From assembly GCA_012517145.1 (NCBI GenBank), contig JAAYVM010000103.1, positions 1-35,796 of the forward strand: 35,796 nucleotides of DNA, written 5' to 3'. Position 1 is the first letter of the stretch; the number at the start of each line of letters is the position of its first letter. Shown here in pieces: positions 12,380-35,796 of the stretch. The stretch is from Acholeplasmataceae bacterium (GTDB taxonomy: Bacteria; Bacillota; Negativicutes; Acidaminococcales; Acidaminococcaceae). The notes under the pieces are model-generated. The model did no database searches and was not told the DNA's origin. It saw nothing but the letters and a program-made list of their open reading frames with translations. A program made the translations under genes and the position numbers.

Positions 12380-12685
12380 ATGTCAATATTGGAAGAAATA
12401 AAGGCAGCAGAAAAGGCAGCAGAAGAAGCAAAGCGCGACGCAAAGGTTAAGACAAGAAACATTATTCGTGAGGCTGAAGAAAATGCGTCCAGAGAGGCTG
12501 AGGCGATGCTTACTACGGCACAGCGCACGGCAAAAAAAGCCGTTGCCGCTGCAGAGGCAGAGGCGAAGATCAAAGCCAAGGCGATTGTGGAGGAGCGGAT
12601 GCTGGCTGATAGGCAGTTAGAGCTGGCAGCCAAGAAAAAGATAGCCGAGGCAGTAGAGTACGTTATAGAAAAGGTTGTGGTCTAG
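12380..12685 (+). CDS. ntpF: V-type ATPase subunit F/H (peripheral stalk, coiled coil)
   Basis: A 101-residue protein that is almost wholly charged, Ala-rich coiled coil, as expected for the small peripheral-stalk subunit paired with subunit E. It is the first gene of the operon, matching the ntpF position in Enterococcus hirae (order F-I-K-E-C-G-A-B-D). Assignment rests on position, size and composition, since such subunits have little sequence conservation. A purine-rich GGTGGTGG site precedes the ATG. The stop lies two bases before the ntpI start. Confidence 0.8.
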   Translation: MSILEEIKAAEKAAEEAKRDAKVKTRNIIREAEENASREAEAMLTTAQRTAKKAVAAAEAEAKIKAKAIVEERMLADRQLELAAKKKIAEAVEYVIEKVVV

Positions 12686-12686
12686 C

Positions 12687-15061
<2,375 letters not shown>

Positions 15062-15078
15062 TCAAGAGGGAGGTAAGA

Positions 15079-15690
15079 ATGGTGGCCATAAACAAAATTA
15101 TTTTAAAAATTCAGGAGGAAGCCTCCCAAGAAGTTGCTGATATGCTTGCAGCTGCCAAGATCAAAGCAACTGCTTCAGCAAACAAAATTAACGATGCAGC
15201 AATGGCAAAAGTTGAGGAGATCAAGGAACAGTCTGAAGTAGACGCTGTTGAAATTGCGAGACGCCAGTTGTTAATAGCTGAATTGGAGGCGCGCAAGAAC
15301 ACTCTTGACAGAAAACGTAAGGTCATCGAGGAAGTTTTTGAGCAGGCGGAAAATAAGCTTGCTGATTTGCCACAGGATAAATGGGAAAAACTAATTATAA
15401 GCACTGTTTTGAACGCTAGTGAGACTGGCAATGAGAAACTTTGCGTACCTTTAGCCGATATCGACAAGTATAAAAACGGCTTGCTTGCAAAGCTTAATGC
15501 TGCCTTAGTCGCAAGTGGCAAGAAAGGTGAACTTACATTGGCAGAAGAAACGGCGAAATTTGCCGGTGGAGTGTTACTTATTGGTAAAAATAGTGATTTC
15601 GACGGTTCATTTGAGACCATTTTAAGAGAAGTTCGCAGAAAATCGGAACGTGAGGTAGCGTCATTGCTGTTTGACGCGGAGGTGAATTAA
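15079..15690 (+). CDS. ntpE: V-type ATPase subunit E (peripheral stalk)
   Basis: A 203-residue soluble stalk protein. The first 100 residues form an Ala/Lys/Glu-rich coiled coil and the C-terminal half is globular (KFAGGVLLIGKNSDFDGSFETILREVRR), the typical subunit E end that contacts the catalytic head. It pairs with the small coiled-coil subunit encoded first in the operon. The start follows GGGAGGTAAG. The gap to subunit C is one base. Confidence 0.92.
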   Translation: MVAINKIILKIQEEASQEVADMLAAAKIKATASANKINDAAMAKVEEIKEQSEVDAVEIARRQLLIAELEARKNTLDRKRKVIEEVFEQAENKLADLPQDKWEKLIISTVLNASETGNEKLCVPLADIDKYKNGLLAKLNAALVASGKKGELTLAEETAKFAGGVLLIGKNSDFDGSFETILREVRRKSEREVASLLFDAEVN

Positions 15691-15691
15691 A

Positions 15692-16684
15692 ATGCCACAT
15701 CCAAGTTATGAGTACGCGGTGGGGCGCATCAGTGTTTTTTCCAGAAGAATGCTGACAGCAGCGCAACTTCGGCGTATTGCTGAAGCGACGGATGTTACGG
15801 AAGCTTTGGCTTTACTTTTGGAAACCGGTTACGGCGGCAATTTAACACCGGCGCAGGTTGTGCATACGGAGATAGATTATGTCATACGTGCCCAACTGCA
15901 GATGTCCAGAAAGATGGTGTGGGAGTTAACGCCTGACCCGGATTTGACCAGCTTATTCTTATTGGAAGTTGATACGCATAATATTAAGACATTTCTCAAA
16001 GCAAGGCTTATGGGAATCGAAGCACCGGATGTTCTGATAGAGGGAGGAGTTTTCCCTCTGGACTTCTTGAAAGATTGTGTCTATAACAAAAAGTATGACA
16101 AGTTACCGGATGCTTATCGGATTGCTATGAATAAAATAGAGATTGACCTGCAGCGGAGCATTGATCCACTGCTGTTCAGCGCTCAAATCGATTGCGCCAT
16201 GTTCAAACATATTAAGAGTGTTCTGGACAAGCGGGAAGAAGAAGGCTTTGTGCGCGAGTATTTTACGCTGATGGCTGATTTTCAAAATGCACGCAGTGTA
16301 ATTCGCAGCCGTATGCTGAACTGGAACAGTGATAAACTGCGGCCGATGCTTCTAGACTGCGGTGAGATTGACCATTCTGTATTTATTGAAGGTATGGATA
16401 CACCGCTGGAACAGCTTGGAGCTAAATTAAACCGCGGTCCAAATGGAAAACTCATCTCTCAAACTATTGAGGAATATGTTGCAACGGGCAATGTTCCAAT
16501 TTTGAAACGCAGAATGGAAACAGCTTTGATGAATGTGCTGAGGGCTGTTAAATGGGATGTGTCCACATTAGGACCTATTATTGGTTATTTGATGGGCAGA
16601 GAAGCTGAGGCTAAAGCTCTTCGCATAATTTTCGGGGCGAAGCGGGCAGGTTTTGAAATTGAACTGCCTGAGCTTTATGCTTAA
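15692..16684 (+). CDS. ntpC: V-type ATPase subunit C (AC39-like rotor collar)
   Basis: A 330-residue helical protein of the V/A-ATPase C (or d) subunit family, which forms the funnel joining the membrane ring to the central shaft. N-terminal YAVGRISVFSRRML and the later helical segments LLEVDTHNIKTFLKARLMG and IGYLMGREAEAKALRIIFGAK are characteristic of the family. The length is normal. It starts one base after subunit E, with its ribosome site GGAGGTGAA inside the end of that gene. Confidence 0.92.
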   Translation: MPHPSYEYAVGRISVFSRRMLTAAQLRRIAEATDVTEALALLLETGYGGNLTPAQVVHTEIDYVIRAQLQMSRKMVWELTPDPDLTSLFLLEVDTHNIKTFLKARLMGIEAPDVLIEGGVFPLDFLKDCVYNKKYDKLPDAYRIAMNKIEIDLQRSIDPLLFSAQIDCAMFKHIKSVLDKREEEGFVREYFTLMADFQNARSVIRSRMLNWNSDKLRPMLLDCGEIDHSVFIEGMDTPLEQLGAKLNRGPNGKLISQTIEEYVATGNVPILKRRMETALMNVLRAVKWDVSTLGPIIGYLMGREAEAKALRIIFGAKRAGFEIELPELYA

Positions 16685-16699
16685 GAAAGGCGGCATCGC

Positions 16700-17026
16700 A
16701 TGAAGGAAAGAAAAATTGCAGTAATAGGAGATCCTAGTTCGGTTATGATATTTAAAGCTATCGGACTTGATGTCTTTTATGAAGAAAAAGAGGCTCAAAT
16801 CGAGCAAAGGATACACAAACTAGCAGATCAGGGTTATGCGGCAATTTATATTACGGAAAAGGCAGCAGAACTTGCAAAGGACGCAATTGATATTTACGCG
16901 ACAGCAACCTTTCCGGCAATAATACCGATTCCCTCGAATACAGGAGTTTTGGGTATCGGAATGAACAAACTAAAATCGAATGTTGAGAAAGCAGTTGGTG
17001 CAGATATTCTATTCAGGGAAGGGTAG
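16700..17026 (+). CDS. ntpG: V-type ATPase subunit F/G (central shaft)
   Basis: A 108-residue central-stalk protein with the N terminus [20 protein letters not shown], the hallmark of archaeal-type subunit F (NtpG in Enterococcus). It ends with a C-terminal helix ([13 protein letters not shown]) that inserts into the catalytic head. Its length is standard. It is placed between subunits C and A as usual, with AAGGCGG upstream of the start. Confidence 0.93.
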
Positions 17027-17037
17027 GTAAGTGGCTG

Positions 17038-18810
17038 ATGAGTGGAACTATTGTAAAAGTAGCCGGCCCGCTGATCGTTGCTGAGGGCATGGATGACGTA
17101 CAAATGTACGACGTTGTCCGCGTAAGCGAAAAGCGGCTTATTGGCGAGATAATTGAATTAAGAGGCGATAGAGCGTCTATTCAGGTTTATGAAGAAACTG
17201 CAGGGCTGGGACCTGGTGAACCGGTAGAGTCAACCGGCGTACCTCTTTCGGTAGAATTGGCGCCGGGCTTGATTGAAGGAATATTTGACGGCATTCAAAG
17301 ACCGCTTGATGTTATACGGGCTATGGCAGGCGATCGTATTTCGCGCGGTATTGATGTACCGAAACTTAATCGTGAAAAGAAATGGGAATTTCATCCCACC
17401 GTTGGCGTAGGTGACAAGGTAGTCGGAGGAGATGTCATAGGGACAGTACAGGAAACTCCGGCGGTTTTGCACAAAATAATGGTTCCTCCTGATAAGGAAG
17501 GTACTATTGCCTGGATTTTAAAAGGTGAAGCTACTATTACTGAGCCTGTTTATAGATTGGAAATGAAAGACGGCAGCATGGCAGAATTCCCAATGCTGCA
17601 GGTATGGCCTGTTCGCAGAGGCCGTCCGTATACTGAAAAGCTGGCGCCGGAAGAACCGATGGTTACCGGCCAAAGAGTCGTTGACGCCTTGTTCCCAATT
17701 GCTAAAGGCGGTGTTGCCGCAGTTCCTGGGCCGTTTGGTTCCGGTAAAACTGTTATTCAGCACCAATTGGCAAAATGGGCAGATGCAGACATCATTATTT
17801 ATGTTGGCTGCGGCGAACGCGGTAATGAAATGACGGATGTTTTGATGGAATTCCCGGAACTGAATGACCCGCGTACGGGACTTCCTTTGATGAAGCGTAC
17901 AGTTTTGATAGCTAATACCTCTGACATGCCAGTAGCGGCACGTGAGGCTTCGATTTATACAGGCATTACTATTGCGGAATATTTCCGCGACATGGGCTAC
18001 AAAGTAGCAATCATGGCAGATTCAACTTCTCGCTGGGCAGAAGCACTGCGTGAAATGTCAGGCAGGTTGGAGGAAATGCCTGGTGAAGAAGGCTATCCTG
18101 CTTATCTTGCATCTCGTCTTGCAGAGTTTTATGAAAGAGCAGGCATTGTTGTTTGCAAAGGACATGACGGCCGTATTGGTGCGGTTTCCGCTATCGGAGC
18201 AGTTTCACCTCCTGGTGGTGATATTTCGGAACCAGTATCACAGGCAACACTGCGCATAGTAAAGGTTTTCTGGTGTCTGAGCTCATCTCTTGCTTATCGT
18301 CGTCATTTTCCGGCTATTGACTGGCTGCAAAGCTATTCCTTGTACTCGGACCGTCTGAAATCTTATTATAATACCTCAGTAGCACCTAACTGGTCGTCGC
18401 TTGTTAACAAAGTCATGCAGATTTTGCAGGAAGAGGCAGAATTGGAAGAGATTGTCCGCCTTGTCGGCGTCGATGCTTTGGGCCTGAAAGATCGTGTCAC
18501 GCTGGAATGCGCCCGCTCCATACGTGAAGACTTCTTGCATCAAAACTCTTTCCATGATGTAGATACTTATACATCCTTGGAGAAACAGCATAAGATGCTG
18601 GAAATGATTATAGGTTGGTATGAAAAGGCTCTTGCCGCTATTGAGCAGCATGTCAGCCTTGATAAACTGATTGATATGCCGGTTCGTGAACAAATAGGGC
18701 GCATGAAATATACACCTGAAAATGAATGTAATACAAAATTTGCTGCTATCAAAAAAGATATGGACGCCGAATTCGCAGCATTGACAGAGGGGAGTGACTT
18801 AAATGCGTAA
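17038..18810 (+). CDS. ntpA: V-type ATPase catalytic subunit A
   Basis: The catalytic nucleotide-hydrolysing or -synthesising subunit, 590 residues. Walker A is GPFGSGKTV (231-239), followed by the catalytic glutamate segment GERGNEM (259-265) and [17 protein letters not shown] further on. The insertion between residues 120 and 190 (non-homologous region) is typical of A-type subunits. The ATG at 17038 follows AGGGTAGGTAAG. It overlaps the next gene by eight bases, so A and B are translationally coupled. Confidence 0.98.
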
Positions 18811-20200
18811 GGATTATAAAACAATACGCGAGGTAGTTGGCCCGTTGATGTTGGTAGAAAAGGTTGAAGGCGTCAAATATGACGAGCTGGTTGAAATTCA
18901 GCAAGCTAATGGAGAAATCCGCAGCGGCAAAGTCCTTGTTATTGATGGTGATAAGGCATTGGTACAACTGTTTGAGACTTCCCAGGGCCTCAAGATTTCA
19001 GATGCTAAGGCACGTTTTTTGGGGCATGGTATCCGCCTCGGCGTTTCGCCGGCTATGTTAGGCCGTGTTTTTGACGGTATGGGCCGTCCGAAGGATGGCG
19101 GTGCTGATATTATTCCTGATGAATATCGCGATATAAACGGTGAACCATTAAACCCAGCTGCTCGCGACTATCCGGCTGAATTTATTCAAACTGGTGTTTC
19201 GGCTATTGATGGCCTTAATACTTTGGTACGCGGACAGAAACTGCCGGTGTTTTCCGGTTCGGGTTTGCCGCATGCCCAACTGGCTGCGCAAATAGCTCGT
19301 CAGGCAAAAGTCCGTGGAACAGGTGAAGGTTTCGCTGTTGTCTTTGCCGCAGTAGGTATCACTTTTGAAGAAGCAAATTATTTCATGAATGACTTTAACC
19401 GCACAGGTGCGTTGGAGCGTTCGGTCATGTTTATCAACCTGGCAAACGATCCGGCTGTAGAACGTATAGCTACACCGCGTATGGCGATTACAGCCGCCGA
19501 GTATCTTGCCTACGAGCTTGGCATGCATGTACTCGTTATTATTACCGATATAACAAACTATGCTGATTCACTGCGTGAAATATCAGCAGCCCGTAAAGAA
19601 GTACCGGGCAGACGTGGCTATCCTGGCTATCTCTATACTGACCTTGCTACTTTGTACGAACGTGCAGGTCGTATCAAAGGAAAGAAAGGTTCTATTACGC
19701 AAATACCAATTCTTTCTATGCCAGAGGATGATAAGACACATCCGATTCCGGACCTGACTGGGTATATAACAGAAGGACAGATTATTCTTTCCCGCGAATT
19801 GTACAGGAAAGGTCTTACGCCGCCGATTGACGTTTTGCCGTCGCTTTCACGTTTGAAGGATAAAGGCATTGGTGCTGAAAAAACACGTGAGGATCATGCT
19901 GACACTATGAATCAGTTGTTTGCAGCATACGCCCGCGGCAAAGAAGCGAAAGAACTGGCTACGATACTTGGTGATGCAGCTTTATCCAAAGTAGATAAGC
20001 TTTACGCAAAATTTGCTGATCAGTTTGAAAAGGAATATGTTTCTCAAGGCTACGAAACGAATCGTACTATTGAAGACACACTTGATCTTGGCTGGAAACT
20101 TTTGGGTATATTGCCAAAAACGGAACTAAAACGTATTCGCGAGGAATATATCGAAAAATATTATGTCCCGGCCAAAACTGATGATACAGAGGGGGAATAA
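18803..20200 (+). CDS. ntpB: V-type ATPase regulatory subunit B
   Basis: The 465-residue non-catalytic partner that alternates with A in the head. The Walker A position is degenerate, SGSGLPHAQ (151-159), as normal for subunit B. Conserved [24 protein letters not shown] and SYPGYL-like [10 protein letters not shown] segments are present. Its ATG lies inside the end of subunit A (eight-base overlap), with AGAGGGGAG as ribosome site. Confidence 0.97.
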
Positions 20201-20203
20201 CCA

Positions 20204-20875
20204 ATGGCAGTACGCGTAAATCCGACGCGTATGGAGTTGACTCGCCTTAAAAAGCGTTTGACAACTGCTGTCCGTGGCCATAAACTTCTGAAAGATAAAC
20301 GAGATGAAATGGTTCGCCAATTCATAATCCTTATACGCCGTAATTATGACCTGCGCCTTGAAGTTGAAAAAGCTGTGGAAGCCGTATCAACCCGTTTCAG
20401 CCTTGCCAAAGCACAGATGGGTGCTTTGCGTATTTCTGAAGCTTTGCTTTATCCTGCCCGCGCTGCCGTCTATGATGTCGGCGAACGTAATGTCATGAGT
20501 GTAAACGTTCCTACTATTTGTTACACTGGCAGTGATGAAAGCACTGATATTCCATATGCTTTCACGTTTACTTCCAGCGCGTTGGATAATGCGGTTATGG
20601 AATTGTCCGAACTTCTGCCGAAACTTTTGGAATTGGCAGAAGTAGAAAAAACTTGCAATCTTTTAGCTGATGAAATTGAAAAAACCCGTCGCCGTGTCAA
20701 TGCTTTGGAGTATGTCATGATTCCGGAAGTAGAGGAAAATATTAAATATATTACCATGAAGTTAGAAGAAAACGACAGGGCAAGCCTCGTTCGCCTGATG
20801 AAGGCCAAGGAAATGATGGCGGCTGCTGCCGAAAAAGCAGATAGGGAAAAAATGGCTGCCGCCGGTAATTTATGA
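20204..20875 (+). CDS. ntpD: V-type ATPase subunit D (central rotor shaft)
   Basis: The 223-residue rotor shaft, mostly two long helices. The N terminus NPTRMELTRLKKRLTTAVRG and the near-C-terminal RRRVNALEYVMIPEVEENI are the family signatures. The C-terminal tail is Lys/Ala-rich. It starts three bases after the B stop and ends the canonical ATPase set. No terminator is visible after it, so transcription probably continues into the racemase-like gene. Confidence 0.96.
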   Translation: MAVRVNPTRMELTRLKKRLTTAVRGHKLLKDKRDEMVRQFIILIRRNYDLRLEVEKAVEAVSTRFSLAKAQMGALRISEALLYPARAAVYDVGERNVMSVNVPTICYTGSDESTDIPYAFTFTSSALDNAVMELSELLPKLLELAEVEKTCNLLADEIEKTRRRVNALEYVMIPEVEENIKYITMKLEENDRASLVRLMKAKEMMAAAAEKADREKMAAAGNL

Positions 20876-20916: not shown

Positions 20917-22197
20917 ATGGCAATGAAGAAGTATTCTTTTCACTACGGTCATGGGCACAAGGATTTTGCGCTTGATAGTGATCGCGTCATCAAAGAAGTA
21001 AAGATGGCGACAAAAGAGCCACTTCAGGATATAAAGGCCGCAGTTCTTGATGCCATTTATCATCCAATCGGTACTAAGCCGCTTAATGAAATCATAAAGC
21101 CTGGACAGACAGTGGCTTTTATCTGCAATGATCCAACGCGTGTTGCCAACAGCTTTGATTTTATGCCAGTATTGGTTAATGAGCTGAACAAACTGGGAAT
21201 TAAAGACGAAGACATGAGAATTGTCTTTGCTTTGGGTACTCACCGACTGATGACACATGAAGAAATGGTCGAGGGTGTTGGCGAAGAAGTTGCCGGCCGT
21301 ATCAAAATGCACAATAGTGATGCTAAAGCACAGGATGATTTCGAATATTTCGGAAAGACATCCTTTGGCACGCCTGTATGGATTAACAAACTTGTTTGTG
21401 ATGTTGATCACGTTATTTTGACAGGAACTATTGTTCACCATTATTTCGCCGGTTACGGCGGCGGGCGCAAAGCAATTCTGCCTGGTGTTGCGGCAATGGA
21501 AACCGTAAGGGTTAACCATAGTTTTATGTTAGATCCTCATTCTGGTCTTGGCAGATTGCATGGCAATCCTGTTTATGATGACCAGATGGAAGGCGTGGCG
21601 CTTTTTGCCAAGGGCCGCTCAATCTTTCTTTTTAATGCTATTTTGGATGATGAGCACCGTTTCTTAAAAATGTTTGCCGGTGACTACGACAAGGCTCATA
21701 TAGAAGCCTGTAAATTTGTCGACGAAGTTTACGGTGTGCCGATTCCGCAGGAGGCTGACGTGGTAATAGCAAGCTGCGGCGGTTATCCGAAAGATATCAA
21801 TGTTTATCAGATGCAGAAGACGATGGATAATGCCTGGTGTGCAGTGCGCGAGGGCGGCGTAGTTATTTTGCTGGCAGAATGCGCTGAAGGCAGTGGTTCT
21901 AAGGTTCTTGAAGAGACTTGCCGTAAGTATAATTCGCCGGATGCTATCAAAGAGCAATTAGAGCAAAATTTTGCCATAGGCGCCAATAAGGCTTTTGCGG
22001 TTACGCGTCTGATGAAAAAGGCTAAATATATTCTGGTTACAGCTCTTGATAAAGAGCTTGCTAAAGACATGCTTTTCGAAGCTGCAGTCGATACTGTCGA
22101 AGAAGCGCTTGCAAAAGCTGAAGAAATTGTCGGTAAAGATTATAAAGTAATTTTAATGCCGACAGGCAGCTTGACAGTACCGCTTTTGAAAAAATAA
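20917..22197 (+). CDS. larA: LarA-family nickel-dependent racemase homologue
   Basis: A 426-residue protein of the LarA family, whose founding member racemises lactate with a nickel-pincer (NPN) cofactor attached to lysine. The cofactor and active-site residues have counterparts: DPTR (R75), GTHR (H109), HHYFAGYGGGRK (H174/H175, K185) and NH (H201), at nearly the same numbers as in LarA of Lactiplantibacillus. Other LarA-like enzymes act on malate or aryl-lactates, so the substrate is open. Cofactor-synthesis genes (larB, larC, larE) are not in this window. The gap after ntpD is 41 bases without a terminator, so it is likely the last gene of the ATPase transcript. Confidence 0.85.
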   Translation: MAMKKYSFHYGHGHKDFALDSDRVIKEVKMATKEPLQDIKAAVLDAIYHPIGTKPLNEIIKPGQTVAFICNDPTRVANSFDFMPVLVNELNKLGIKDEDMRIVFALGTHRLMTHEEMVEGVGEEVAGRIKMHNSDAKAQDDFEYFGKTSFGTPVWINKLVCDVDHVILTGTIVHHYFAGYGGGRKAILPGVAAMETVRVNHSFMLDPHSGLGRLHGNPVYDDQMEGVALFAKGRSIFLFNAILDDEHRFLKMFAGDYDKAHIEACKFVDEVYGVPIPQEADVVIASCGGYPKDINVYQMQKTMDNAWCAVREGGVVILLAECAEGSGSKVLEETCRKYNSPDAIKEQLEQNFAIGANKAFAVTRLMKKAKYILVTALDKELAKDMLFEAAVDTVEEALAKAEEIVGKDYKVILMPTGSLTVPLLKK

Positions 22198-29244: not shown

Positions 29245-31959
29245 ATGGGGAAAAAATTATTGATAGTGGATAATGTGAGGAGTAGAAGAGAAGCGCTTAA
29301 GGCCTCTCTATCACAAGAGTATAATGTGCTGGAAGCTGAAGATGGCTGCCAAGGATTGGAGACATTAGAAAAAGACAAGGACATTAAAATCGTTCTTTTA
29401 GAACTATTATTACCTAAGATGAGCGGGTTAGAGTTTTTGCAGATTGTACGTTCAAAGGAGGCTTATAAAAAACTCATTGTTATTGTAGTAACCTCTGAAG
29501 GAGAAACGTCTGACGAAAATTCGATACTTGGCATAGGTGCAGATGACTATATTTGTAAACCTTTTACTAATAAGGCAATTTCAGTGCGCATTAAGAATAT
29601 ACTAGCTAACAGGGAAATGCTGGCAGATTTAGAGAATTGTTTTTGTTTACAGGGAAATATTTTAGATGGAATGGAAACCGCGATTTACGTGGTGGATGCT
29701 ATAAATTATAATCTGTTTTATACGAACAGGGCAGCTATGCAATTAATGAATTGTACCAGCAAAAGTTACACTGGTAAGAAGTGTTATGAATTTTTTGGTA
29801 AAGGTACGCATCCATGTCATTTTTGCAAGCTTTTTATATCGCATACCGATAACAATAAGGCAGAAACTTATATTCCCTTTATCAATAAAACTGTGCAGGT
29901 TCGTGTTTGCATGATGAAATGGCTCGGAAGGCCGGCCTATATTACGTATATGACAGATATAACAGAGCAAAAACGTGCTCGTGAGTTAGCTGATGAGAGA
30001 TATAAAAAAGAACTTCAGCGACGTTGTCGCGTTGATTTGGACTTTATGGCATATCTTGTTTTTAATGTTACTAAAGGAACGGTTGTGGACCATGATCCGC
30101 ACGGGTTTCCTGTACCAACTATTGTTCCGGGGCAACCGGCAACAGAATTTGTAGAAAGAGTTTTGCCAACAGTGGTTGATTTTGGTAAAAGGCAAGAATT
30201 TGCGGATTTGTTAAAATTGGATAATTTGAGTAAATCTTATGATGCCGGTATTACTCTACTATCAATTGATTATCGGCGTTACTCAAGAAATGGTAAATAT
30301 ATAATGTGGGCTCGTTCTACGATTCAGCTTATGAAAGATCCACAAAATGATGATTTAACAGCATTTTTATATACATATGATATAAATGAAACAAAAATGA
30401 TGCAGGAGATTATTAATGCGGCTGTTCATTATGACTATGATATGATTGCCTATATCAATCTTGCTGCAGAGACCGCTAAATTATATGCTCAAAAGGATCA
30501 GCGTTTTAGAGGATTCATCGGCAGGGATTTTAGCTATGAAAAAGCAGTTGAGGAATATGTAAAAACATTTATTATTGCTGAAGAACGTAAAAATATCATG
30601 GAAAAAATGGCTATAAGTAATGTTCGCAGTAAGTTAAAAGAAAGTGACATTTATGAATTCGATATAGAGGTTATTGGAGCGGATAACGCAGCAAAGAAAA
30701 AAAAGCTCCGTTATGCTAATTTTGATAAAAACTATGGCATGGTTCTGTGGACTGAGGTTGATATTACTAATTTTGTAGAACAGCAAAAACTTATTTTAGA
30801 AGCACTTTTAGCGGCAACTAATGTAAATATTATCAGAACAGATTATTTATCCTCTATAAGTCGTGAAATGAGAATGCCATTTAAAAACATAACAGCATGT
30901 ATTAGAAATGCTATTGATAAAAGCGAAAGTGAAATAGTCAGGGAACAGTTAGAGGAAGCTAAGAGATATGTGGTACAATTAACGGAAATTGTAAACGACA
31001 TTATGGATATAAGTAATTTGGAAAGTAAGAAGATGCAGATTATGAATACCCAGTTTTTGCTTACAGATATGGTGTCTAGGCTAAAAAATAAATTTAAACA
31101 ATATTATACTTCAAAAAAACAAAAATTTATGATAGAGCAACAGGTTTTTCATGATAACTGTTTTAGCGATATAAAAGCTATTAGCCGTATTTTAGCAAAC
31201 ATTTTGGATAATGCTTTCAGATATACTGCTAAAGGCGGCAACATCATCTTGAAAGTTTATGAATTACCATCTGAAAGTAATGAAAGAGGCTTTTACAGGT
31301 TTGTTGTGAAGGACGATGGACCAGGAATCAGCCCAGAACTTTTGGAGAATATATTCACACCTTTTTATTGTTGTGTAGGTGGTAAATGTAAGAGTGAAAG
31401 TTCAGGATTGGGTATGGCAATTTCTAAAGGAATTGTTGATGAATTAGGTGGTACTATTTTTGTTAACAGTGAAATTGGCAATGGGACTATTGTTACTGTT
31501 GATTTACCATTATTACTTACTAATAATGAAAATGCTGGTGCAGAGGTTTTAGAGGAAAGCTGTAAAAGCATTGTTGACATGAAAATTTTGATTGTTGAAA
31601 AAAACCCATTATCCATTCTTGTTGCTCGAAAGTTGCTGGAAAAAAAGGGCGCACAGGTTTATTTGGCTGAGAATGGGCTTAAGGCTTTGGAGTTATTTGA
31701 AAATACCGGAGACAAGGGCTTTGATTGCATTTTAATCAATTTGTGTTCAGTTGAAATAGACGGCGCAGTAACAGCAAAAAAAATTCGGCAGAGTTATTAC
31801 CCATTGTCAGGTTCGGTGCCTATGATTGGATTTGGCGAAAAACTTACACAGGAAGAAAAGCGCCTTTACGTTGAGGCTGGTATTAATGATTTTTTAGAAA
31901 CACCATTGAAGTTTAAACAACTTTTGGAAATTATTTTAAATTTATGCAAAAATGGTTAA
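29245..31959 (+). CDS. Hybrid sensor protein REC-PAS-(PAS)-DHp-HATPase-REC lacking phospho-acceptor residues
   Basis: A 904-residue soluble signalling protein. Domains: REC 4-118; PAS about 126-235 with CHFCK; two further PAS-like regions about 255-515; dimerisation helix about 530-595; ATPase domain about 635-755 with an intact N box (NILDNAFRYT), DDGPG and SGLGMAISKG; second REC 779-900. Key sites are changed. REC1 has Glu53 for the phospho-Asp and D9-N10 for the acidic pair, though T83 and K105 remain. The H box reads SREMRMPF, with Arg540 instead of His. REC2 has Asn832 for Asp, E785-K786 for the acidic pair and no KP lysine (LETPL). ATP binding may persist but classical phosphorelay cannot run. 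The ATG at 29245 follows GGTGGGG. Preceded by the CATATG-type promoter. Confidence 0.9.
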   Translation: MGKKLLIVDNVRSRREALKASLSQEYNVLEAEDGCQGLETLEKDKDIKIVLLELLLPKMSGLEFLQIVRSKEAYKKLIVIVVTSEGETSDENSILGIGADDYICKPFTNKAISVRIKNILANREMLADLENCFCLQGNILDGMETAIYVVDAINYNLFYTNRAAMQLMNCTSKSYTGKKCYEFFGKGTHPCHFCKLFISHTDNNKAETYIPFINKTVQVRVCMMKWLGRPAYITYMTDITEQKRARELADERYKKELQRRCRVDLDFMAYLVFNVTKGTVVDHDPHGFPVPTIVPGQPATEFVERVLPTVVDFGKRQEFADLLKLDNLSKSYDAGITLLSIDYRRYSRNGKYIMWARSTIQLMKDPQNDDLTAFLYTYDINETKMMQEIINAAVHYDYDMIAYINLAAETAKLYAQKDQRFRGFIGRDFSYEKAVEEYVKTFIIAEERKNIMEKMAISNVRSKLKESDIYEFDIEVIGADNAAKKKKLRYANFDKNYGMVLWTEVDITNFVEQQKLILEALLAATNVNIIRTDYLSSISREMRMPFKNITACIRNAIDKSESEIVREQLEEAKRYVVQLTEIVNDIMDISNLESKKMQIMNTQFLLTDMVSRLKNKFKQYYTSKKQKFMIEQQVFHDNCFSDIKAISRILANILDNAFRYTAKGGNIILKVYELPSESNERGFYRFVVKDDGPGISPELLENIFTPFYCCVGGKCKSESSGLGMAISKGIVDELGGTIFVNSEIGNGTIVTVDLPLLLTNNENAGAEVLEESCKSIVDMKILIVEKNPLSILVARKLLEKKGAQVYLAENGLKALELFENTGDKGFDCILINLCSVEIDGAVTAKKIRQSYYPLSGSVPMIGFGEKLTQEEKRLYVEAGINDFLETPLKFKQLLEIILNLCKNG

Positions 31960-32023: not shown

Positions 32024-32092
32024 AAGAGACAAGGGGACGGTCCTAAAATGTCACTTTACACGTGACATTTTAGGACCGTCCCCTTGTCTCTT
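32024..32092. repeat. Large perfect palindrome, REP-like
   Basis: Arms of 30 bp (32025-32054 and 32062-32091) are exact complements with loop TTTACAC. The left arm begins AGAGACAAGGGGACGGTCCT. It lies between convergent genes (sensor and Rrf2) and may terminate both, but its GGGGACGGTCC core recalls dispersed palindromes of Firmicutes genomes, so it may be a mobile repeat unit. Confidence 0.85.
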
Positions 32093-32116: not shown

Positions 32117-32584
32117 TTATTTTTTATTCAAGTGAGACAGATAAGTAAGATAAAGACTAGGGGTACCTAATTTATTCTGCTGCATACGAAGGAGATCTGT
32201 CAGGGTAAGGTTATCCAGCAGTTCTTCTACGGTGGATTTAACAAGCTGCCAGACATCAGAGGAAATGCATTTATTGTAACGTGGGCAAAAACTTCCGTCT
32301 GAAGGTGCACAAGGTGTTAAGTCTTTGTAACTTTCAGTAACTTTAATGATTTGAGAAACACTATAATGCGATGGACTACTAGTCAGCCTATAACCACCGT
32401 GAGCTCCCCTTACGGCAACTACCAAGCCTGCTTTTGTTAATTTGGACATAATTTGTTCAACATATTTAGGAGACAAAGTTTCTTCTTCGGCAATATCCTT
32501 TACGGCTATATATCCCAATGTATAATGTTCTGCTAAATATAGCATTACTCGCAGTGCGTAACGACCTTTTGTAGAAATCCTCAT
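32117..32584 (-). CDS. Rrf2-family transcription regulator, IscR-like, second copy
   Basis: A 155-residue winged-helix regulator with the opening MRISTKGRYALRVMLYLAEH and recognition helix around SPKYVEQIMSKLTKAG. Cysteines at 92, 100 and 106 are at exactly the same positions as in the Rrf2 protein at 6211-6648, so it too may hold an Fe-S cluster. Otherwise the two differ at many positions. It is divergent from the unrecognised operon that starts at 32922, and the shared AT-rich region between them makes control of that operon plausible. The ribosome site AAGGAAGGA lies upstream of the ATG. Confidence 0.88.
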   Translation of the reverse strand: MRISTKGRYALRVMLYLAEHYTLGYIAVKDIAEEETLSPKYVEQIMSKLTKAGLVVAVRGAHGGYRLTSSPSHYSVSQIIKVTESYKDLTPCAPSDGSFCPRYNKCISSDVWQLVKSTVEELLDNLTLTDLLRMQQNKLGTPSLYLTYLSHLNKK

Positions 32585-32921: not shown

Positions 32922-33176
32922 ATGAAACGTAGAGACTTTTTTACTAAAGGATTTCCTGCATATGTTTTTAAAATGGGCGAAGCGTTTGTAGAAACAGCCG
33001 GGCTGGCGGAAGAAGAAAAGGCAGGATATTTTGATTCTTTTGAGTCTTGCTATCCATTATTATCTGAAGTTTCTTACGATATGCTCGTAGACACAGCTAA
33101 TAATTTGGGAATTTCGATAGAAGGGAAGAATAAATTAACATTAGCAAAGGAAATTTTCAGCAAAAAGGAAGTGTAG
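32922..33176 (+). CDS. Small protein of unknown function
   Basis: I do not recognise this 84-residue protein. It begins MKRRDFFTKGF, which looks like a twin-arginine motif but is not followed by a hydrophobic signal segment, so export is doubtful. The rest is acidic and helical (FVETAGLAEEEKAGYFDSFE...), ending with KLTLAKEIFSKKEV. The ATG at 32922 is chosen because it follows GTGTAGGGGT; an upstream in-frame extension has no ribosome site. It is the first gene of the operon and lies one base before the next. Confidence 0.6.
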   Translation: MKRRDFFTKGFPAYVFKMGEAFVETAGLAEEEKAGYFDSFESCYPLLSEVSYDMLVDTANNLGISIEGKNKLTLAKEIFSKKEV

Positions 33177-33177
33177 C

Positions 33178-34005
33178 ATGTACTATATCGACAGACTTCT
33201 AAATCAAGCGATTTGGCTTTTGCTTGAAAAAAATAATAAAAATGAACTGAGATATATAAGCCGCATAGAAACAGAAAGAACGGCATGGTATTTTTGGCTT
33301 GCAGGGGCAGCTGGTGTGTACGAATTCAGGCTTAAGGACTGCTATGAAGAGAATGGTCTTGAAAAAAGCACTTTTATGCTTAAATACTACCCGGATCCCA
33401 ATGAAGATACCTTTGAAGATTTCTCTTGCAGTGAACAGATCATAAGAATGAGCTCTTATTTTGATAATTCGATTATAGAAATCGACAAAGAGGAGCATGA
33501 TTCGTGCCCTTGCTGTGCAGGTGGGCATCATGTGCATGAACATGGTAAAGAATGCAAAACGAATTTGGTGAAGCGCAGAAGCAAAGGCATACCGAAACTT
33601 TTGAAACGTTCTCTTTTGCAGCCTTCATTGTTTCTGATTGGTGAAGTTGAATTTGACATGAAACAGGACATGCTTTTAAACAGTGCTTTTGTTACACAGA
33701 CAGAGTTTATACAATTTTCTGAAGAGGGATTATACGCTGGTCAGGACGATCAGGTATATGAACTTGTAGGAAAAGGTGAAGTTGATAGAAAAGTCAAAGG
33801 CTTGAATTTGTGCCGGGCATTTTATGATTTTTTGGTGGAAACTTTGTTTGGCGCAATATCAATAAAGCTGATTGGGGAGCAGACCTATTCCACCATAGGA
33901 TCTGTATCTTATCAGCGAAAAGACGGCAGTTATTATAATCGACGAGCGGATGATGTAAAAAAGGTAGAGGTGCATAACTGCTATAAGATTGGAGGCGCAG
34001 GATAA
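33178..34005 (+). CDS. Cys/His-rich protein of unknown function
   Basis: No family recognised for this 275-residue, apparently soluble protein. A dense cluster of possible metal ligands lies in the middle: CPCC (C110, C112, C113), then GGHHVHEH (H117, H118, H120, H122) and C126. This segment is flanked by charged sequence. The N-terminal part is Trp/Tyr-rich (TAWYFWLAGAAGVYEFRL). The C-terminal half reads like a beta-rich domain with basic patches. It follows the small gene by one base, so the two are coupled, and is followed after 37 bases by the 48-residue membrane peptide gene. Confidence 0.65.
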   Translation: MYYIDRLLNQAIWLLLEKNNKNELRYISRIETERTAWYFWLAGAAGVYEFRLKDCYEENGLEKSTFMLKYYPDPNEDTFEDFSCSEQIIRMSSYFDNSIIEIDKEEHDSCPCCAGGHHVHEHGKECKTNLVKRRSKGIPKLLKRSLLQPSLFLIGEVEFDMKQDMLLNSAFVTQTEFIQFSEEGLYAGQDDQVYELVGKGEVDRKVKGLNLCRAFYDFLVETLFGAISIKLIGEQTYSTIGSVSYQRKDGSYYNRRADDVKKVEVHNCYKIGGAG

Positions 34006-34042
34006 CCGCGGGAAATAATGTAGAAAGGGGGATAAAAATCTT

Positions 34043-34189
34043 ATGGACGATATAAAAGTCCCGGTAGTTGATGAAAGCGGGAAGTTTTCATGGCCGGCTT
34101 TTGTCGCCGGATTGATTTTGGGCGCTTTTTTGTTCTGGCTGACGATGCAGGTAATAGTGGCGCTTATGTTTTCAAGGACAGCAGCATAA
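34043..34189 (+). CDS. Small single-span membrane protein (48 residues)
   Basis: The frame starts with MDDIKVPVVDESGKFSWPAF and continues with one hydrophobic span (about 18-43, FVAGLILGAFLFWLTMQVIVALMF), then SRTAA and stop. It is preceded by AAAGGGGGATA at a suitable distance, and lies between two genes of the same strand with short gaps, so it is probably real. It resembles small subunits that anchor or stabilise membrane complexes, but no family was recognised. Confidence 0.65.
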   Translation: MDDIKVPVVDESGKFSWPAFVAGLILGAFLFWLTMQVIVALMFSRTAA

Positions 34190-34209
34190 TATCATAAGGA
34201 GGTTTAGCT

Positions 34210-35295
34210 ATGGGTCTTTCCAGACGTGATTTTCTGAAAGGATTGGCTGCAGGCGGCACTACGGGCTATTTAGCTATGGCTGGTGTGTCCTCAACCGTCA
34301 TGAAAGATGTGTTTCTTCCAACGGAACCTGTGGGCGATTTCGATATAGGAGAATGCAAGAGTGTGACGTGCAAGGTAATATCGGAAACAAGCTGGTTTAA
34401 AAATGCTGTAACTGTAGGAGATATACAAAAAGCAGGTGGACTTCTCGTTAATCAATATATTATTCCTTGGACCAGCGAAGGGGTAAAAGAAGGCTATAAT
34501 GGTGATAACCGCGGCGGGTATGCGACATTAGTAGATGTAGAACTTCTTGATGGGACCCACAAAAAGATATTGTTAGACTGTGGATGGAACACAAAGTGGA
34601 TGGATGAATGTTTTGCAAGAGAAGGCATTGATAAAATGCTTGATAAAAAAGAAATTGATATGTTATTTATCTCCCACGAACATTTCGACCATTACTGGGG
34701 TATAGAATCGGTTTTAAAACATTACCCTGATATACCAATCATTATTCCGAAAGGTTTTTATAAAGAGGGTCTCGATTTAATGAAAGGGGCCAGTTTCCCA
34801 GTCGCTAAAGTGAAAAATGATTATCCACATACAGGGAAACTGGAAGTAAGAGAATCAGGGAAAGTTCACCCCCTGTTCCCGGGCGCAGCGTCTATTTCTT
34901 TTGATTCAGCAATAATATGCAGAGTTACAGGCGAGCAAGGCCTTGTTTTTAATGTCAAAGACAAAGGCCTCGTTGCAGTAACTGGCTGCTGCCACATGGG
35001 CATTATTTCTTTCCTGGAGGACATAAAACACCGTATAAAGGGCGGCAGCAAAATATTTGGGGTTCAAGGAGGCTTACATATTTCTCCGTTTGAAGATTGG
35101 GATCCTCAGTACGATGATTTGATTTTGGCTTTGCCTGAATATGGCATTGAAATTATTGGCTGTAATCATTGTACCGGATACTTGACAGCAGAAAAAATGA
35201 TTAAAGCAGGCTTGCCGGTAGTAAAAGGAACAGCAAGGTTTAAGAGTAGAAAACCGTTGTTCCTGGGTAACGGTGATGTACTTAAATTCTGTTGA
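34210..35295 (+). CDS. Tat-exported metallo-beta-lactamase-fold protein (COG1237-like)
   Basis: A 361-residue protein with a clear twin-arginine signal, SRRDFLKGLAAGG (4-16), so it is folded and loaded with metal before export. The metallo-beta-lactamase motif HEHFDH (156-161) is followed by VTGCCHMGI (H262) and GCNHCTG (H320). These match the group related to RFAP synthase (7,8-dihydropterin-6-yl-methyl-aminobenzene-phosphate synthase) and other COG1237 proteins. Most of those are cytosolic, so the exported location is unusual. Substrate unknown. The ribosome site AAGGAGG lies upstream. Cysteine is the last residue (KFC). Confidence 0.85.
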   Translation: MGLSRRDFLKGLAAGGTTGYLAMAGVSSTVMKDVFLPTEPVGDFDIGECKSVTCKVISETSWFKNAVTVGDIQKAGGLLVNQYIIPWTSEGVKEGYNGDNRGGYATLVDVELLDGTHKKILLDCGWNTKWMDECFAREGIDKMLDKKEIDMLFISHEHFDHYWGIESVLKHYPDIPIIIPKGFYKEGLDLMKGASFPVAKVKNDYPHTGKLEVRESGKVHPLFPGAASISFDSAIICRVTGEQGLVFNVKDKGLVAVTGCCHMGIISFLEDIKHRIKGGSKIFGVQGGLHISPFEDWDPQYDDLILALPEYGIEIIGCNHCTGYLTAEKMIKAGLPVVKGTARFKSRKPLFLGNGDVLKFC

Positions 35296-35329
35296 ACTAA
35301 AAACTTAGATATATGGAGGCGTAAATAAT

Positions 35330-35796
35330 ATGATTAGCCTGAAAGACCATATGTGGCTTGAAAGCCGGATCATGGAGAACCGCTTGAAACACCCGGCGCG
35401 TGGGATTGTGGGAATAATGATTTCATTCGTCATGTTCTATATTCTGTGGTATGTATTTATGGACCCGCGGGGAATCTTAAGATGGTATACTCCCCAGTAT
35501 GGTTATATGTATGTTCGTTGGATTTTAATTGTCGCCATTTGGCAAGCATATGTATTTAATTTTTGGCCGTTTAAACTGCATTTTAGGGAAACGGCACATC
35601 CTCTTATAAATGGGGCCATACTTATTGCTGTTAACTTTGCGGTAGTAGGTGCTGTAATATGGGGATTCTTTTATAATTTTCTTGGTAAATATTCTATTCC
35701 GTATCTTAGTGTTGATGGGTTGGTTAAAATGGGAATGACCAATTTTTATGCACGGGAATATTCCTCTTTAGCAATTTTGATGTTTGCTGCTATTGC
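35330..35796 (+). CDS. Multi-span membrane protein, incomplete at the window end
   Basis: An open frame of 155 codons from the ATG at 35330 (ribosome site ATGGAGG) runs off the window. The sequence starts MISLKDHMWLESRIMENRLK. Four hydrophobic segments can be seen: near residues 25-43 (IVGIMISFVMFYILWYVF), 66-82, 96-115 and starting near 148. The rest of the protein is unseen. It is next in the operon after the Tat-exported protein and could be the membrane partner of that protein. No family recognised. Confidence 0.7.
   Translation, partial: MISLKDHMWLESRIMENRLKHPARGIVGIMISFVMFYILWYVFMDPRGILRWYTPQYGYMYVRWILIVAIWQAYVFNFWPFKLHFRETAHPLINGAILIAVNFAVVGAVIWGFFYNFLGKYSIPYLSVDGLVKMGMTNFYAREYSSLAILMFAAI

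Follow-up and report, generated by a model that had tools for sequence, protein, structure and literature searches.

The window, that is, the whole stretch of 35,796 nucleotides that was analysed, carries a gene for a protein with the architecture of a hybrid histidine kinase, followed by the gene of an Rrf2-family regulator and by a conserved set of genes that runs to the contig end (Table 1). The domains of the kinase-like protein follow each other in the order REC1-PAS1-PAS2-PAS3-HisKA-HATPase-REC2. Both receivers (REC) and the HATPase score well over the Pfam cut-off and HisKA falls slightly under it (22.5 versus 26.9 bits), while PAS2 and PAS3 are named PAS-like from their size, position and similar arrangement only. 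Hydropathy reveals no transmembrane segment in the protein. The AlphaFold2 models, whose alignment input consisted of four close sequences only, have a pLDDT of 41 for the full protein and of 52 for HisKA-HATPase, and are too poor for a fold search. Elsewhere in the window, an apparent V-type (A-type) ATPase operon (12380-20875) followed by a lactate-racemase-like gene (20917-22197) is read from the ORF translations only.

Table 1. Coordinates of the kinase-like gene, its domains and its neighbours in the window
Feature	Position	Strand	Basis
Pseudo-hybrid histidine kinase gene, 904 aa	29245..31959	+	Open frame, ATG start; Pfam; orthologues
REC1, residues 1-122	29245..29610	+	Pfam PF00072
PAS1, about residues 130-245	29632..29979	+	Weak Pfam PAS_9 match; alignment
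PAS1 Cys180, Cys191, Cys194	29782-29826	+	Alignment of 8 orthologues
PAS-like domain 2, about residues 250-395	29992..30429	+	Inferred; without Pfam match
Putative third PAS-like domain, about residues 396-515	30430..30789	+	Inferred from size and position alone
HisKA/DHp, residues 516-597	30790..31035	+	Pfam sub-threshold; alignment
HATPase_c, residues 598-762	31036..31530	+	Pfam, 84.5 bits
REC2, residues 779-904	31579..31956	+	Pfam PF00072
Perfect inverted repeat, 31 nt with a loop of 7 nt, in the gap between the kinase and Rrf2 genes, which are convergent	32024..32092		
Rrf2-family regulator, conserved neighbour	32117..32584	-	Pfam PF02082; synteny
p100, small conserved protein (MKRRDFFTKGFPAYVF...), no family, start approximate	32922..33176	+	
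p275, conserved protein, Cys/His-rich stretch, no family	33178..34005	+	
Tat-signal metallo-beta-lactamase (MBL)-fold protein, set marker	34210..35295	+	Pfam PF00753, PF10518
Predicted membrane protein, about 426 aa, no family, ended by contig end	35330..35796	+	

The phosphate-carrying residues of this protein are replaced one and all. The Asp site of REC1 is Glu53 (codon 29401-29403, +), and the second acid of this domain is also gone (Asn10), with Thr83 and Lys105 retained; the His site of HisKA is Arg540 (codon 30862-30864, +, in the context SISREMRMPF); and the Asp site of REC2 is Asn832 (codon 31738-31740, +). A preliminary description of this DNA had reported these three substitutions in an open frame of 904 codons, together with intact ATP-binding motifs (N box, DDGPG, GLGMA), and is confirmed on both counts, as the N (ILDNAF), G1 (DDGPG), F and G2 (SGLGMA) boxes are all in place. 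Its account of further losses in REC2 stands in part: the conserved Lys is indeed gone, replaced by Thr886 (codon 31900-31902, +), and the Thr/Ser site is Phe863, but the acidic pair has lost one member only: the first acid remains as Glu785, and the second is replaced by Lys786. The description had also raised a displaced functional His nearby; residues 516-600 contain none, so that the DHp region offers no displaced phosphoacceptor. The Thr position of the HExxT phosphatase motif is Met544 (codon 30874-30876, +; local residues R-E-M-R-M). E/DxxT/N is the general phosphatase motif of HisKA kinases (PMC11502775), and the window protein, with Met544 at the Thr/Asn position, lacks it; a role as transmitter phosphatase only was rejected on this ground. 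The loss of this Thr and the linked gene set treated below are additions to the preliminary description. As to class, both receivers match the receiver profile without its phospho-Asp (Glu53, Asn832), as the definition of Asp-less receivers has it; of the marks of a canonical hybrid histidine kinase the HATPase boxes alone are present, with His and receiver Asp missing; and a HisKA fold without phosphoacceptor His, in a gene under selection, marks the protein as a probable pseudo-histidine kinase.

In bacteria at large, the His is missing in 0.9% of HisKA domains and the Asp in 2.0% of receivers (PMC12632262). Family (profile) searches of the window genome found the His in all seven of its other HisKA kinases and the Asp in all 10 REC domains outside the window protein, and the related hybrid kinases of the same taxonomic family have kept His, ATP boxes, REC2 Asp and REC2 Lys in 14 of 14 cases. 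Among the orthologues, 6 of 7 sequences have lost the His against 0 of 21 other kinases, with Fisher values (2e-5, or 3e-4 if the Arg clade is a single count) that are a guide only, the sequences being related by descent. Sequencing error is excluded for Arg540 and Glu53 because both recur elsewhere, the former in two other assemblies and the latter in four other species. Recent decay of one copy, or an assembly error, was thus rejected for these two residues and could apply to Asn832 only, which among close relatives is seen in the window assembly alone.

The orthologues form a single clade separate from the paralogues (support 100/100). The full-length ones are found in L015 (94% identical), L016 (86%; the same as genome G009), L017 (78%; the same contig as G020), G033 (47%), G024 (41%) and G036 (40%), giving a sample of seven with the window included and of eight with the copy of G003 (56%), an N-terminal piece ended by the contig end, whose C-terminal half is absent from the contig that holds the G003 exbB. 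L015 and L016 share the gene order of the window at 86-94% identity, and their bin labels, Bacteroidia and Acholeplasmataceae, look misnamed. Searches at E 1e-70 in 380 genomes of the class found no homologue outside the taxonomic family, and a search of 398 genomes from the phylum gave a single further match, a 28% identical kinase with a canonical His. The nearest relatives over residues 244-900 are hybrid kinases from this family that are canonical, L036, L025 and L037 among them (26-31% identity). They differ from the window protein in that the His, the ATP boxes and both the Asp and the Lys of REC2 are all retained, that their N-terminal part is another one and that the HDPHGFPVPT block is missing.

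The distribution of residues across these orthologues allows the changes to be placed in order. The His site holds Arg in the window, L015 and L016, His in L017, Asp in G033, Glu in G024 and Ala in G036; by parsimony this takes four changes within the clade, of which at least three are independent losses, since a single loss could lie behind both the Glu and the Ala of the sisters G024 and G036. The REC1 site is Glu in the window, L015, L016, L017 and G033, Val in G024, Thr in G036 and Asp in G003; the REC2 Asp is kept in L015, L016, L017 and G036, and replaced by Ser in G033 and by Asn in the window and G024; the REC2 Lys is Thr in the three Arg carriers and Lys in the remaining orthologues. 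Therefore, the changes in the window protein came stepwise, and, judging from this distribution, Glu53 is the oldest, Arg540 and Thr886 follow, and Asn832 is the last and the sole recent private change, so that the three do not go back to a single event. Arg540 is encoded by CGT in the window and in L015, and by AGA in L016; therefore, the codon has turned over while Arg was kept. That description had also considered that sister strains might keep His and Asp, which would point to a recent decay of this copy. One genus (L017/G020) does retain the His, and with it the REC2 Asp, and Asn832 is private to the window, but Arg540 is common to three species.

Selection was estimated as dN/dS by the Nei-Gojobori method with codon bootstrap. 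The whole-gene ratio is 0.164 (0.11-0.23) for window-L015 and 0.167 (0.13-0.22) for window-L016, two pairs that lie entirely inside the Arg540 clade; the window-L017 comparison is rough, with dS close to saturation. On these ratios the kinase gene is under purifying selection, and the earlier proposal that selection maintains the protein although it runs no phosphorelay itself gains support from them and from the repeated loss of the His. The neighbouring MBL-fold gene has a dN/dS of 0.03, so the kinase gene does not belong to those under the strongest constraint. Constraint is strongest in PAS2 (0.06-0.07), followed by PAS1 (0.08-0.09); for window-L016 the values are 0.07 in PAS2, 0.09 in PAS1, 0.14 in PAS3, 0.18 in HisKA, 0.13 (0.08-0.22) in HATPase, 0.32 in REC1 (0.29-0.32 overall) and 0.34 in REC2 (0.34-0.36 overall). 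REC2 is thus relaxed by this measure, and HATPase is still constrained after the loss of the His. The HDPHGFPVPT block of PAS2 is identical in 8 of 8 orthologues and missing from paralogues, and Cys180, Cys191 and Cys194 of PAS1 are invariant in the same eight, with a similar Cys motif in some paralogues.

The genes beside the kinase belong to a conserved set, p100-p275-Tat-signal MBL protein-426-aa membrane protein-TatA-TatC, which lies at 32922-35796 in the window and at L015:3619-8738. Contig C136 of the window genome holds the rest of the membrane protein (90% identical to that of L015), tatA and tatC. Searches of Pfam and NCBIfam gave no family over the cut-off for p100, p275 or the membrane protein, the last of which is 61-94% identical across genera and families. 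In G020/L017, G033, G024 and G036 the kinase gene sits between tatC and exbB-exbD-tonB, on the same strand and with small gaps, and in G003 it follows tatC and runs to the contig end; upstream of tatC come tatA and the genes for the 426-aa membrane protein, the Tat-signal MBL-fold protein, p275 and p100, usually with Rrf2 near. The kinase gene of the window, L015 and L016 is instead found upstream of Rrf2, at the opposite end of the set, and exbB is absent after tatC in the window genome (C136) and in L016. An exbB-exbD-tonB cluster on contig C106 of the window genome was considered as part of the set and rejected as a different locus. The inverted repeat between the kinase and Rrf2 genes is probably a two-way terminator, and it looks like it could be either this or a REP-like element; L015 has it with compensating changes in both arms, and L016 has a different palindrome in the same place.

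Among 59 genomes of the family, the MBL gene is present in 10, and the kinase occurs in 7 of these 10 and in 0 of the 49 without the set. The remaining three, of genus g15, have the set and exbB-exbD-tonB with the kinase missing; therefore, the kinase is not essential to the gene set. No orphan response regulator or kinase adjoins the kinase gene in the taxonomic family. In G059 and G319, two genomes from the class that belong to other families, the set comes with a GAF/PAS kinase that has a canonical H box (VAHEIRNPLG) and with an NtrC-like sigma-54 regulator that retains its Asp, in the same place after the membrane protein. The canonical GAF/PAS kinase and NtrC-like regulator genes are seen at L128:9735-13194, there between the membrane protein and tatC, and at L129:4300-7906. 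Because these outgroup sets hold canonical signalling proteins at the same place, the gene set is, on gene order, normally linked to a signalling protein, which in the family of the window appears as a disarmed hybrid. A literature search for this kinase family together with Tat or ExbB found nothing.

The reading that we favour, at a probability of roughly 55%, is that the window protein is a conserved pseudo-hybrid histidine kinase that works in the cytosol as a phosphotransfer-independent sensor and scaffold. It would probably signal by binding partners and not by passing phosphate, because the phosphate-carrying residues are lost, the His has gone at least three times and the gene stands intact beside its set. 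Four catalytic residues are lost, the gene is under purifying selection, the His has been lost repeatedly and the gene co-occurs with the set. The PAS domains, with the Cys triad of PAS1 and the cassette-specific motif of PAS2, may perceive an internal signal, for which redox, a metal or a small molecule are candidates and the Cys triad a candidate site. This signal would alter the dimer, in which the kinase half could provide a surface for dimerisation and docking, perhaps ATP-bound in the clade of the window. The output would then be protein-protein contact, in which the protein pairs with, or blocks, another kinase or a response regulator, to the exclusion of self-phosphorylation, phosphotransfer and transmitter-phosphatase action. 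Its target is probably the expression or activity of the Tat/MBL-fold/membrane-protein set, plus TonB-ExbBD where present.

The main rival holds that the PAS half, perhaps with REC1, is the working part, and that HisKA-HATPase-REC2 is a vestigial output module being dismantled piecemeal, its losses reflecting relaxed constraint. Across the seven species, invariant columns make up 51% of PAS2 and 38% of PAS1 against 4% of HisKA, 7% of HATPase and 8% of REC2, and the dN/dS of REC2 (about 0.35), the stepwise losses in an order that differs between lineages and the disappearance of the N and G1 boxes in G024 and G036 all point the same way; the relaxed REC2 and the HATPase motif loss in these two orthologues would also fit a slow decay of the output half. 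Against this, every ATP-box residue is retained throughout the Arg540 clade, where the HATPase is constrained even after the His loss, and the entire C-terminal half is present in 7 of 7 full-length copies. The low HATPase ratio thus counts, as far as substitution rates tell, against a vestige in the Arg540 clade and not in G024/G036, and we regard this rival as rather unlikely.

The retained ATP boxes bring up a half-active partner, which would form a heterodimer with a canonical kinase and, from ATP bound by its own intact HATPase, phosphorylate the His of the other chain; it would thus be a catalytic subunit in spite of its missing phosphoacceptor. The boxes are intact and constrained in the clade of the window and largely intact in G033, and seven canonical HisKA kinases are available in the window genome. 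It cannot be the shared function of the family, however, because G024 and G036 lack the ATP boxes, and the genome holds no hybrid kinase with a closely similar DHp, the next best match being 27% identical (E 6e-21), which leaves this option improbable. For the same reason, the ATP-driven mechanism of the preliminary description cannot be general, and it may hold for the window's own clade. A lower chance still is given to a receiver that is constitutively 'on', with Glu53 imitating phospho-Asp and driving a downstream partner: this Glu is kept in five species and is the commonest substitute in Asp-less receivers, some of which it activates, but Asp-to-Glu by itself is often insufficient (PMC4395418), REC1 has a dN/dS of about 0.3, and Val, Thr or Asp stand at the site in orthologues at the same gene position, so that the phosphate mimic suggested earlier is no family trait. 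A decaying pseudogene that is still unbroken, which the private Asn832 and the one genus with His and Asp might recall, is already disfavoured and very improbable, given a dN/dS of 0.16-0.17 with an upper bound of 0.23, stops or frameshifts in 0 of 7 full-length orthologues (40-94% identity) and an Arg540 common to three species.

The origin of such a sensor can be sketched tentatively, with somewhat less than even odds: in this one family, a phosphorelay kinase tied to the Tat/MBL-fold/TonB set would have become a phosphorylation-free allosteric sensor, after which phosphotransfer was lost independently in at least three lineages, with replacing residues and an order of steps that differ between them. 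In that case, once contact had become the protein's mode of action, its lineages could do without phosphotransfer or were even favoured without it, and intermediates between His-plus-Asp and all-lost survive today. Databases contain many pseudo-histidine kinases and pseudo-receivers, and to our knowledge the mechanism by which those of bacteria work is mostly unknown. The family described here offers graded natural variants in the same neighbourhood, from a kept His to Arg, Asp, Glu and Ala, with and without the REC Asp and with and without the ATP boxes. It therefore makes accessible the question of what in a hybrid kinase stays important after phosphate transfer has ceased, and could let one follow the change of a kinase into a sensor without catalysis.

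Several known proteins resemble parts of this picture. DivL of Caulobacter, in the accessible text of PMC4211667, combines PAS domains with a HisKA/HATPase core that, as in the window protein, has another residue in place of the His but retains its core motifs, and it acts by binding a regulator and not by phosphotransfer; its chain 4q20 is among the sequence matches of the window protein (E 3.5e-11). According to the same text, nearly all DivL homologues have Tyr at the His site, and the window orthologues, which vary there (Arg, His, Asp, Glu, Ala), do not share this conserved Tyr. The known partners of DivL are DivK and CckA, and the accessible text describes no REC domains for it, whereas the window protein has two degenerate ones. 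RetS of Pseudomonas has a similar hybrid architecture and acts on another kinase by direct contact (PMC5992135), and its chain 6dk8 matches the core of the window protein (E 2.5e-11). In RetS, His, HExxT Thr and REC2 Asp are all retained and the HATPase is degenerate; the window protein presents the reverse pattern and thus lacks the combination typical of RetS. Phosphate siphoning as done by RetS is excluded for the window protein because the REC2 Asp is needed, and phosphatase action because HExxT is needed, its Thr (T428) being required for the transmitter phosphatase activity of RetS, whose third mechanism is independent of phosphosites (PMC5992135). Of the three, the residues of the window protein would leave open only the one in which contact inhibits or alters a partner kinase.

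Kinase-dead sensors are also represented by RocA, which modulates the canonical kinase CovS (PMC7028121), and by ChrS, which acts via ChrS-HrrS heterodimers (PMC9491836). RocA is a membrane sensor without receivers, in contrast to the two receivers and the absence of a transmembrane segment by hydropathy in the window protein, and ChrS, unlike it, became kinase-dead through a laboratory frameshift. By analogy, action by contact is within the reach of sensors that do not depend on a His, as DivL, RocA and ChrS show. Both REC1 and REC2 fit the definition of Asp-less or pseudo-receivers (PMC4395418, PMC12632262), but the best-described examples sit in response regulators, whereas here they are the two receivers of a His-less hybrid kinase.
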